Of a stretch of 64,000 bases of DNA, positions 2,371 through 64,000 are shown one piece after another. Position 1 is the first letter of the stretch. Each line of letters starts with the position of its first letter. Origin of the DNA: Clostridia bacterium. Its GTDB lineage: Bacteria; Bacillota; Clostridia; Oscillospirales; CAG-272. A model generated the notes under the pieces. That model saw only the letters and a program-made list of their open reading frames with translations. It was not told the DNA's origin and did not search any database. The position numbers and the translations under genes are program-made. The stretch covers positions 47,344-111,343 of the forward strand of contig JAQXHN010000003.1 in assembly GCA_029007295.1 (NCBI GenBank), written 5' to 3'.

Positions 2371-4155
2371 ATGAGCGTTATAAAAAAATTGCAAAATCCC
2401 GTAATCGGCATACGTCCGATTATCGACGGCAGAATGAAGGGCATAAGAGAAGGACTTGAGGACCAGACGATGGGTATGGCTCTCACTGCCAAAAAATTGA
2501 TTGAAGAAAACTGCTTTTATCCCGACGGCACTCACGTTCAGTGCATTATTGCAGATACATGTATAGGCGGCGGAGCTGAAGCTGCGATGTGTCAGGATAA
2601 ATTTCAGACAGCCAATGTTTGCGCTACGCTTTCCGTTACTCCCTGCTGGTGCTACGGCTCGGAAACAATGGATCTTGACCCGATGACGGTCAAGGCAGTA
2701 TGGGGCTTCAACGGCACCGAGCGTCCCGGAGCCGTATATCTTGCGGCAGTAATGGCGGCTCACGCACAAAGAGGACTCCCTGCATTTGCTATCTACGGCC
2801 ACGACGTTCAGGACGCGGACGATAAGAGCGTTCCCGAGGATGTCCGTGAAAAAATTCTTCGCTTCGCTCGCTGCGCTATTGCAGTAGGACTTATGAGAAA
2901 TAAGGCTTATGTCGGCGTCGGTGCGGTTGCAATGGGTATCGGCGGCTCCGTGCTGGATCCGATCATCATGCAAAAATATTTCGGTCTGCGCGCAGAGTGG
3001 GTCGATATGAGTGAAATTATCCGCCGTGTGGAAAAAGACATCTATGACCACGAGGAATATGAGAAAGAGCTTGCGTGGATTAAGGCAAACTGCAAGAAGG
3101 GACTCGAAACAAATCTTCCCGAAAAGAGAAACACGCCCGAGGAAGACGAAAAGGAATGGGAATTCATCGCAAAGATGACCCTTATTATAAAGGATATTCT
3201 TTTGGGCAATCCGAAGCTTGCCGAAATGGATTGGATTGAAGAATCGCACGGCAGAAACGCTCTGCTCGGAGGCTTCCAGGGACAGAGAATGTGGACCGAC
3301 TTCAAGCCTAACGCAGACTTTACGGAAGCTATAATGAACACCTCGTTCGACTGGAACGGCAAAAAGCAGCCCACAATCTTCGCAACGGAAAACGATACCA
3401 TGAACGGTATGGCAATGCTTCTTTTAAACCTCGTTACCAACAGAAGCGCAGTATTCGCAGATGTTCGTACCTACTGGAGCCCCGATGCAGTCAAGAGAGT
3501 TACGGGTTATACTCCCGAGGGCAAGGCCGAAAAAGGATTTATTCATCTTCTTAACTCCGGCGCCGCCGCTCTTGACGGCACAGGAGCTGCAAAGGACGAG
3601 AACGGCAATCCGACAATGAAGCGTTGGTGGGATATGACAGACGAGGACATCAAGGCTTGTATGGACAACACAAAATGGGCTCCCGCAAACAAGGGCTATT
3701 TCAGAGGAGGCGGCTTCTCTTCCCAGTTCTCAACTATCGGTGAAATGCCCGTTACACTCGTACGTATGAATGTAATCGACGGTCTCGGTCCCGTTATTCA
3801 GCTCGCAGAGGGCTATACGGTTGAGCTTCCCGAGGATGTAAACCACACCCTCTTAATGAGAACGGATCCGACTTGGCCGTCAACATGGTTTGCTCCGATT
3901 CTGAACGACACAGACGCTTTCAAGGATGTATACAGCGTTATGGCTAACTGGGGCGCTAACCACGGTGCGTTTGCATACGGTCATGTAGGTGCGGATATTA
4001 TTACCCTTGCTTCCATGCTCCGTATTCCCGTTGCGCTTCACAATGTTCCCGATGAGAAAATTTACCGTCCGCACGCTTGGTCTGCATTCGGTACTAAGGA
4101 TTTAGAGGGCGCAGACTACAGAGCTTGCGCTAACTACGGTCCGATGTATAAATAA
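2371..4155 (+). CDS. fucI: L-fucose isomerase
   Basis: A 594-residue cytoplasmic enzyme that interconverts L-fucose and L-fuculose (also D-arabinose/D-ribulose), the first intracellular step of fucose use. The full length matches FucI. Visible landmarks include the N-terminal GIRPIIDGR segment and the metal/active-site Glu (ATENDTMNG) and Asp (FADVRTYWSP) regions. The C-terminal GHVGADIITLASMLRIP and HNVPDEKIYRPHAWSAFG are the FucI C-terminal metal-site region. No fuculokinase, aldolase or fucose permease is adjacent, so the rest of the pathway must lie elsewhere. It has its own promoter and terminator and faces the hexosaminidase/ceramidase operon, which suggests host-glycan use. Confidence 0.93.
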   Translation: MSVIKKLQNPVIGIRPIIDGRMKGIREGLEDQTMGMALTAKKLIEENCFYPDGTHVQCIIADTCIGGGAEAAMCQDKFQTANVCATLSVTPCWCYGSETMDLDPMTVKAVWGFNGTERPGAVYLAAVMAAHAQRGLPAFAIYGHDVQDADDKSVPEDVREKILRFARCAIAVGLMRNKAYVGVGAVAMGIGGSVLDPIIMQKYFGLRAEWVDMSEIIRRVEKDIYDHEEYEKELAWIKANCKKGLETNLPEKRNTPEEDEKEWEFIAKMTLIIKDILLGNPKLAEMDWIEESHGRNALLGGFQGQRMWTDFKPNADFTEAIMNTSFDWNGKKQPTIFATENDTMNGMAMLLLNLVTNRSAVFADVRTYWSPDAVKRVTGYTPEGKAEKGFIHLLNSGAAALDGTGAAKDENGNPTMKRWWDMTDEDIKACMDNTKWAPANKGYFRGGGFSSQFSTIGEMPVTLVRMNVIDGLGPVIQLAEGYTVELPEDVNHTLLMRTDPTWPSTWFAPILNDTDAFKDVYSVMANWGANHGAFAYGHVGADIITLASMLRIPVALHNVPDEKIYRPHAWSAFGTKDLEGADYRACANYGPMYK

Positions 4156-57841: not shown

Positions 57842-57860
57842 ATAATAAGGCGAATAATAA

Positions 57861-57905
57861 ATCAAGGCAATACCGGGTTAAAACCTGTATTGCCTTGATT
57901 TCATC
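57861..57905 (+). terminator. Terminator of the glycosidase operon
   Basis: ATCAAGGCAATAC / GTATTGCCTTGAT, 13-base arms with an extra GGTT/AACC inner pairing, followed by TTCAT. Confidence 0.85.
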
Positions 57906-58080
57906 GCATAAGTTAATTATGAATGACACCTTAAAAAACGACACAAACATATATAAAAATCACCTATAAAAATCCGTATGCTCCTGTAAAATATAATATA
58001 TAAAGGACTTTGACAGACAGTATTATAGAATAACATTATCTGTAGGACATAACGGAAATATTGCGACTGTGTGCAATATT

Positions 58081-58158
58081 GCAAAATAAAAGCAGGGAAA
58101 GCACCTAAGCTAAGTTAATAGCCGTTGTGGGCTCTAAGGCCAGCAGTGCTTTCTCTAC
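58081..58158 (-). ncRNA. Candidate short hairpin RNA
   Basis: On the minus strand a promoter-like TTGACA-15-TATAAT (58189-58163) is followed at once by AGAGAAAGCAC. This pairs over 11 bases with GTGCTTTCCCT at the far side of a 41-base interior and runs into GCTTTTATTTTGC. The whole forms a compact RNA of about 75 bases ending in a terminator-like T-run. Inside, AGCC/GGCT and GGC/GCC pairs are possible. It could also be a mobile-element end or MITE. Confidence 0.45.
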
Positions 58159-58162
58159 AACC

Positions 58163-58189
58163 ATTATAACACAAAAAACTATTTGTCAA
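58163..58189 (-). promoter_or_regulatory. Promoter-like pair for the hairpin RNA
   Basis: TTGACA (58189-58184) and TATAAT (58168-58163) on the minus strand. Both boxes are consensus, but spacing is only 15 bases, below the optimum of 17. Confidence 0.45.
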
Positions 58190-58250
58190 GTAGTAAATCA
58201 AAAAAAATGCTTGCTGAAAACGCTGTAATCAACAATAAGGAGGTATAACT

Positions 58251-59555
58251 ATGCTGAGAATGGAAATTGCTCTGTTTTCGGTTGTTGCTTTTGTTGCATA
58301 TATTTATTTTTCGGCCGAGAAGGAACGTGCGCCTCTCCACAGAACATTTTCTGTTTTATTGGTAGCTGTGCTTGCTAATTTAATGTTTGACGGTATCACC
58401 GTCTACACAGTTCATCATTTGGAAACCATACCGAGATTATTGAACGACGCCGTCCACAGACTTTTTTTGGGCAGTATGGTTTTGACGATCTATCTGTTCT
58501 ATCAGTATATCGCCATTCTTGTTGAAACACAGACAGGAAAACCCCGGCGACTCGACCTGCCTGCCGCAATTTTTCTGCTTATTGCACAGCTTTGCAATTA
58601 TCTGTTGCCTATTTCTTACACAGTGACGGATAAAGGAAACTATTCCTCGGGTCCTTATATGTATGTTCCCTATGCGGCGGTAGTCTTTTATCTTCTGTTG
58701 TGCGCCGGACTTTTGGCGGTTAATCGTAAGCAAATTAACAAAAAAGAAAAATATACCATCGGAATCGCACTTACAATTGAATTTACCGTATGCGCTTTGC
58801 AGGCTCTGTTCCACACCTGGCTCATCAGCGGTATGGGTATAACCTTAATGACCCTATCCTTCTATCTTACTCTGGAAAATCCCGAGGCACTTAGGGCAGA
58901 GCTGACCGAACAGAAGATGTCCATGCTCTACCTGAAAAGCCAGGTAAATCCCCACTTCCTTTACAATACGTTAGACACCATCCGTATTCAGGCACAGCTG
59001 AACGGCGATACAAAAGTGGCGGAGCTTCTTATGCGTTTGGTGGATTTTTTCCGCCTCAGCGTCAAGATAGACCGTCAAATGGTCACGCTGGACGATGAGA
59101 TGGAGCTGCTGGAAGCTTACATGGAGCTGATGTGTTATCGCTACCCGGAGCTTCACTGCGAATACGACATTGACCCTGATTTGGGCGCCGCCAAGGTACC
59201 TAACTTCATTCTGCAGCCGATTGTGGAGAACAGCCTGCTGCACGGACTCAAAAACAAGGGATATCGGGGAGAGATAATTATTTCAGCCAAAGAGACGGAC
59301 GAAGACAATATTGAAATCTGCGTAAGAGATACGGGAAACGGCTTTGAGAACGGCAGAAAAGACGCAATCGATAAGATGCTTCAAAACTACGCAAGGCAAG
59401 CGCCTAAGCTCACCGGAAACAGCGTAGGAATCCTAAACGTACAAAAGCGGATTAAATTACTGTGCGGCAGGGAATACGGACTTTCATATACGGAAAACGA
59501 AGACAGCGGCGTTACCGCTCACATACTGCTGCCGATGAAGGAGAAAATAAAATGA
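58251..59555 (+). CDS. Membrane sensor histidine kinase (YesM/LytS-like)
   Basis: A 434-residue kinase. Residues 1-215 contain six or seven hydrophobic segments with little periplasmic loop, so it may sense a membrane or small-molecule cue. The phosphoacceptor His is in SQVNPHFLYNTLDT near residue 235. The ATPase domain has the N-box FILQPIVENSLLHGLKNKG and G-box VRDTGNGFENG. AAGGAGG precedes the start. Stop overlaps the regulator gene by ATGA, so the two are cognate. Confidence 0.9.
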   Translation: MLRMEIALFSVVAFVAYIYFSAEKERAPLHRTFSVLLVAVLANLMFDGITVYTVHHLETIPRLLNDAVHRLFLGSMVLTIYLFYQYIAILVETQTGKPRRLDLPAAIFLLIAQLCNYLLPISYTVTDKGNYSSGPYMYVPYAAVVFYLLLCAGLLAVNRKQINKKEKYTIGIALTIEFTVCALQALFHTWLISGMGITLMTLSFYLTLENPEALRAELTEQKMSMLYLKSQVNPHFLYNTLDTIRIQAQLNGDTKVAELLMRLVDFFRLSVKIDRQMVTLDDEMELLEAYMELMCYRYPELHCEYDIDPDLGAAKVPNFILQPIVENSLLHGLKNKGYRGEIIISAKETDEDNIEICVRDTGNGFENGRKDAIDKMLQNYARQAPKLTGNSVGILNVQKRIKLLCGREYGLSYTENEDSGVTAHILLPMKEKIK

Positions 59556-63820: not shown

Positions 63821-63887
63821 CCAAAAAAGTGTGCATTAAAAACCGAATAAAGGAAGAGCAAACGGAAACTCAACCTTCCGTTAGGAA

Positions 63888-64000
63888 GTTCAAGCCCTCG
63901 GTCTATTAGTATCGGTCAGCTGAACACATTACTGTGCTTACACCTCCGACCTATCAAACTTGTAGTCTGCAAGTGACCTTACCAACTTGAAGTTGTGGGA
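63888..64000 (-). rRNA. 23S rRNA, 3' end (partial)
   Basis: Read on the minus strand, the sequence TTTGATAGGTCGGAGGTGTA, then ACAGTAATGTGTTCAGCTGA and CCGATACTAATAGACCGAGG match the highly conserved last 100 bases of bacterial 23S rRNA. The exact 3' end is set near 63888 by comparison with the usual terminal GGGCTTGA segment. The rest of the gene continues beyond the right edge. No 5S follows before the operon terminator. Confidence 0.95.

Follow-up and report, generated by a model that had tools for sequence, protein, structure and literature searches.

A decayed copy of a predicted small antisense RNA gene of polyvalent-protein genes in the leader of a clostridial sensor kinase gene

The closest described counterparts of the element analyzed here are the cis-encoded antisense RNAs of mobile elements, among them the plasmid copy-number RNAs RNAI and CopA, RNAII of pMV158, and the type I antitoxins. 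Like these, the unit described below (RNA family R1) is, to judge from its sequence features, short, equipped with its own promoter, stable stem-loops and an intrinsic terminator, and complementary to the gene it overlaps; the loop of its second helix (P2), CUUYGA, contains a YUNR, which we take to be U-turn-like, as in cis-antisense RNAs. Unlike the plasmid and type I RNAs, the units sit within the coding sequence, where domains join, occur in some cases several per gene in unrelated sequence, and constrain codon choice. The genes concerned encode polyvalent proteins, which are believed to be injected into the host together with phage or plasmid DNA and to disarm it (Iyer et al, 2017; PMC5512222). 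That paper does not explain what silences genes that are so large and possibly harmful, and its text contains none of the terms "antisense," "small RNA," "noncoding RNA," "linker," and "promoter."

The window (the whole stretch of DNA analyzed, 64,000 nt from a Clostridia bacterium) contains an inverted repeat with 11-nt arms at 58094–58104 and 58146–58156 and 41 nt between them, just as the first-pass annotation had described it. On the minus strand, the TTGACA (−35 element, 58189–58184) and TATAAT (−10 element, 58168–58163) to which that annotation had drawn attention are present with a 15-bp spacer, the stem lies downstream of them, and the T-rich tail, CTTTTATTTT, follows the stem. The predicted RNA of ∼75 nt (58083–58157, minus strand; both ends are estimates, the start ∼6–7 nt past the −10 element and the end within the U-tract) would consist of the 5′ arm of the closing stem P1 (GTAGAGAAAGCAC, 58146–58158), the P2 hairpin GGC-CUUAGA-GCC (58130–58141), which reads as G-S-K-A codons on the sense strand, the P3 hairpin GCUA-UUAACU-UAGC (58109–58122), the pairing 3′ arm of P1 (GUGCUUUCCCUGC, 58092–58104), and a U-rich terminator tail (UUUUAUUUU, 58083–58091), all on the minus strand. 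The stem spans 11–13 bp; the one G-U pair counted in it earlier exists on the plus strand only and becomes an A·C on the minus strand, from which the RNA was proposed to be made. Compared with shuffled sequences, the fold shows a modest excess of stability (z = −2.3 to −2.6 for the minus strand and −2.05 for the plus strand). Judged alone, the window hairpin could nearly be chance; it stands above chance because of the comparison with its relatives, namely, the match to a covariance model described below.

Other structural proposals for this stretch found less support. GGTTGT, suggested to pair with ACAAC in the loop region, abuts the −10 box and so would lie upstream of, or at, the transcript start, and the pairing was not seen in the aligned relatives. 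An HDV-like ribozyme, considered for this nested pairing, was rejected on the same grounds and for want of an Rfam match. The letters of a second hairpin, AATATTGC/GCAATATT, are present (58057–58064/58073–58080) but are absent from the aligned relatives. That the unit resembles neither 6S, SRP nor tRNA was borne out by Rfam 15, in which no family, ribozymes and riboswitches included, matched it at gathering score. A plus-strand match to "6A RNA" (E = 0.012; 25 bits versus a cut-off of 41) concerns A-rich sequence and was discarded. Elsewhere in the window, a 21-bp inverted repeat (57859–57901) directly follows an alpha-amylase-family gene and probably acts as a bidirectional terminator, with the end of the minus-strand RNA facing it, and the 3′ end of a 23S rRNA gene lies at the window edge (63886–64000, minus strand).

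The hairpin is located in the 5′ leader of a sensor histidine kinase gene (58251–59555, plus strand), of which 63–83% identical orthologues exist in many other Clostridia; the search of same-family genomes yielded none. In most of 80 orthologues, a conserved operator (CTATAAAAttGACACA..CCTATC..TAYAAT) is situated ∼75–115 bp upstream of the ATG. The corresponding operator/promoter in the window (CACCTTAAAAAACGACACA..CACCTATA..TAAAAT/TATAAT; 57927–57997, plus strand) is 78% identical to that of locus L074 and lies ∼250 bp or more upstream of the gene, with the hairpin-bearing DNA between the kinase promoter and the ribosome-binding site. L074 matches the window on both flanks (57917–58002 and 58221–58270) and nowhere in between; because its flanks join without them, the ∼218 bp holding the hairpin are extra DNA in this lineage. 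A homologous leader was absent from the other kinase orthologues compared, and the fold of the complete plus-strand leader is at chance level (z = −0.8). The operator itself is strongly conserved across Clostridia (L059–L138) and is probably the binding site (a predicted one) of an AraC-type response regulator, which would imply autoregulation. A plus-strand pseudoknot common to the long kinase leaders (L104, L114, L065, L077, and L099) was considered and dropped, as only L104 exceeded its shuffles; the L104 leader (∼2890–3000; Eubacterium sp. MSJ-21) is long, folds very stably (z = −5), and shows pseudoknot-like pairing near the ribosome-binding site.

Where the extra DNA comes from could be read from its closest relatives. 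In 394 genomes of the order, two real ones were found (L140 and L141), which share 66–71% DNA identity with the window over ∼200 bp (57996–58220, plus strand). Both have an uninterrupted coding frame on the equivalent of the plus strand (..FDGQYYEITFSVGHKGTVATVYNVGKIKA..AVVGSKPLG..), whereas the frame is broken in the window because of two 1-nt gaps and a spacer shorter by 2 nt; a protein profile (A1) still matches the relic in the window genome, with three TAA codons inside. The relic comprises the C-terminal end of an unnamed domain of ∼240 amino acids ("..FDRQYYRITLSVGHNGNIATVCN..(GKIKA)..IAVVGSKASS..") and the linker that follows it. Relatives retrieved by protein search reside in long ORFs carrying LPD38, ART-PolyVal, MuF_C, and PBECR3, domains of the same kinds as in the proteins of PMC5512222, and for this reason the host ORFs are regarded as polyvalent proteins. 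The domain just before the RNA had no match in Pfam, PDB or PHROG, tblastn in phages and plasmids returned none, and its AlphaFold2 model (mean pLDDT 50.6) was too poor for a fold search. The relic is oriented with respect to the coding DNA of L140 and L141 as expected for an RNA antisense to polyvalent coding sequence. A DNA search with the RNA body in 295 same-family genomes gave short chance matches only. Matches to the upstream part in 15 relatives were promoter regions (TTGACAAAT..TTTTGTGYTATAAT), located before genes in the cases read; these promoter-only matches show that the minus-strand boxes are of a promoter type common in this clade and do not mark relatives of the RNA.

In all close relatives, the antisense strand carries the same succession of elements: TTGACW, a spacer of 16–18 bp (mostly 17), a TATAMT-like box, a stem arm, P2, P3, the second arm, and CTTTTATTTT, with the −35 element at the same position relative to the stem as in the window. 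The T-tract of the relatives, AAAATAAAA, coincides with conserved G-K-I-K codons. The fold is a three-way junction of ∼80 nt (P1 as the closing stem, P2, and P3) followed by the U-tract; RNAalifold recovered it from the relatives, and their individual folds have z-scores of −3.9 to −6.8. Covariation was assessed in an alignment (A3) of eight members, from which the window was excluded. The P1 arms of these members differ in sequence yet pair. Over P1, P2, and P3, 94.5% of cells are paired, and this value falls to 43–53% when the partner is slid. Changes on both sides were seen in 13 of 23 pairs, a number reached by none of 500 shuffles. P2 (columns 23–26/33–36) is 100% paired, and its pair 26–33 is C-G in four members and G-C in the other four, a switch that matches the protein motif GSKA versus GSKP (GSK[AP]). 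P3 is conserved or covaries as well, but more weakly (helix 4, 75% of cells). When stems were defined in a strand-neutral manner, the non-Watson-Crick pairs of the antisense stems comprised 38 G-U and 7 A·C, a bias suggesting that constraint acts on the antisense molecule.

With the window held out, a covariance model was built from the eight members; it matches 58162–58072 on the minus strand of the window with 53.6 bits (E = 2.6e-8), the runner-up having an E of 0.067 and the next best match within the window 21.1 bits. The model also matches further members, including worn stand-alone copies in another genome, G627 (L183 and L184). By the R1 promoter pattern (TTGACW-N16..18-TANNNT upstream of P1), the window has perfect hexamers and a spacer of 15. 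The comparison thus supports well that the unit antisense to polyvalent genes is conserved and RNA-like, and identifies the window copy as a single decayed relic of it, slightly worn in its spacer, in P1 with its one A·C, and in its broken frame. The first-pass annotation offered two origins, a hairpin RNA or the remnant of a mobile element, and both apply: the insertion is what remains of a phage or mobile-element polyvalent gene, and its minus strand bears a predicted small RNA gene belonging to a conserved family.

The arrangement recurs. In a scan for promoter, stem, and T-tail that was designed, thresholds included, after the first family members had been seen and in which the controls were bacterial, not phage, a unit was present at 16 of 24 antisense promoter-like sites of family loci. 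The 80 control loci had a unit at just 1 of their 55 promoter-like sites, and at none of the 10 that were antisense. Loci fetched by their ART domain had a unit at 10 of 44 antisense sites versus none of 36 others, and many long polyvalent ORFs found via this domain had none by the same scan. Five units were present in a single phage ORF of at least 4,067 amino acids, and in an independently found faecal phage record the sole promoter-like site in 12.6 kb was such a unit. The codons of S-I-x6-V-[NK] were AGT-ATA..GTC in 16 of 20 protein-found sites (background ∼14, 22, and 23%; Fisher 9e-11, 3e-10, and 7e-9), a motif picked after inspection but with sites not selected by DNA pattern. This bias implies that the antisense promoter is maintained in the nucleotide sequence as such; an earlier codon test had been discarded because it drew most of its loci from a search with that very promoter pattern. 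In three phages (L145, L320, and L329), a second antisense promoter-hairpin-terminator unit occurs at GSI[ST]Y..V[NK]L, another polyvalent segment, and its stem looks covarying by eye. The inner sequences of units in different linkers differ. Units beyond the eight-member family are linked to it by architecture, not by sequence, so that one origin for all of them would be conjecture. We lean toward the view that, in gut phages and mobile elements, polyvalent genes as a rule have small antisense RNA genes (a promoter, a three-way-junction or hairpin RNA, and a terminator) where their domains join, as many as five per gene and written into the linker codons.

Comparative analysis establishes homology, insertion relative to L074, covariation, an antisense strand bias, a promoter codon bias, and recurrence. 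The reading that we prefer, with a probability of roughly 0.7, sees in the hairpin the decayed, free-standing copy of a small RNA gene whose normal place is antisense within polyvalent genes of phages and related mobile elements, with cis-antisense control of the polyvalent mRNA as its most likely mechanism. Intact copies would be transcribed from a sigma70/sigA-type antisense-strand promoter into an RNA of ∼80 nt, which would fold into the three-way junction of P1, P2 (with its CUUYGA-type loop), and P3, with P1 and the U-tract doubling as an intrinsic terminator. At an interdomain joint, the polyvalent mRNA would be complementary to this RNA over its whole length, and pairing would silence the mRNA or make it a target of RNase III; an effector that is large and possibly toxic would thereby be kept off until needed. 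From the anatomy of the units, we infer transcription, termination, and silencing in cis. The cis-antisense mode is preferred because pairing to an overlapping mRNA is automatic, so that the RNA could drift freely in sequence as long as it retains promoter, stem, and terminator; the units show this very pattern. In the window, a ∼218-bp fragment bearing the whole unit was inserted between the promoter of the sensor kinase gene and its ribosome-binding site.

Conservation of the three-way junction and of the P2 loop, together with the occurrence of copies lacking an intact host ORF in the window and in G627 (L183), would also fit a structured small RNA of the mobile element acting in trans, in host takeover or by binding protein, for which the antisense location would be incidental. 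The letters of the P2 loop are G-S-K-A/P codons too, however, so that RNA and protein constraint are inseparable there; the inner sequences differ between linkers, and the stand-alone copies are worn, which renders a trans-acting role unlikely. It is more improbable still that hairpin and promoter-like boxes serve as a signal in the DNA (a domain-shuffling site, an attC-like hairpin, or a packaging mark) and do not form an RNA gene. Units do lie at the interdomain joints of modular genes, and their stems vary in sequence while keeping structure; but a −35/−10 spacing of 16–18 bp that is nearly always 17, conservation at the codon level, and a T-tract after the stem are traits of a transcription unit. 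The G-U bias likewise fits an RNA, although a hairpin always formed from one DNA strand could tolerate G·T as well. Least probable is a MITE or the remnant of an insertion sequence. The DNA is extra relative to L074 and clearly derived from a mobile element, but of the further genomic copies, matching ends and target-site duplications by which a MITE might be recognized, none was seen: the genome holds one copy, its other matches being promoter-like or short, neither terminal inverted repeats nor target duplications were apparent at the junctions, and the sequence is homologous to an internal coding segment. For this genome, a multi-copy element with terminal inverted repeats is refuted.

A separate question is whether the relic now regulates the kinase operon, either through an RNA antisense to the kinase leader (which the minus-strand RNA, if still transcribed, would be) or as a structured plus-strand leader. 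It sits in the 5′ leader between a conserved operator and the ribosome-binding site, its promoter hexamers are perfect, and its stem is mostly intact. Against this stand its restriction to a single genome, the 15-bp spacer and the P1 mismatch, the chance-level folding of the plus-strand leader and its lack of homologues among other kinase orthologues, and the absence of any sign of selection on the window copy since insertion. Such a role is doubtful, and the window copy is somewhat more likely inert than active on the kinase leader. The window itself provides a small example of debris from a phage gene lodged in a bacterial regulatory region.

The promoter-stem-terminator pattern antisense to polyvalent genes appears to be undescribed so far: no known RNA family matches the unit, Rfam being without one that corresponds to R1, papers that deal with polyvalent proteins or MuF toxins make no mention of antisense RNAs of this sort, and a literature search outside subscription papers found no description of them. 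Gut-1 RNA (RF01706), which lies beside one family member (L156, 1320–1393), is a separate element, made of hairpins in tandem that GUGAAAU links. Several of these genomes have multiple copies of it, and the window genome has none; in G321, G424, G335, and G459 it has many copies per genome (up to 49 matches), often as pairs facing in opposite directions, and it resembles a repeat element more than it does a single-copy small RNA. For human microbiomes, Fremin and Bhatt predicted 2022 candidate structures that overlap with coding regions (PMC8040213). The units described here illustrate that surveys limited to intergenic regions can miss structured RNAs on the reverse strand of coding genes. 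A recurring antisense RNA, conserved in structure, at polyvalent domain joints is a candidate answer to how such genes stay silent. If true, injected effector polyproteins would be subject to a level of RNA control that has not been described before, and that leaves fossil copies in bacterial promoters such as the one in the window.
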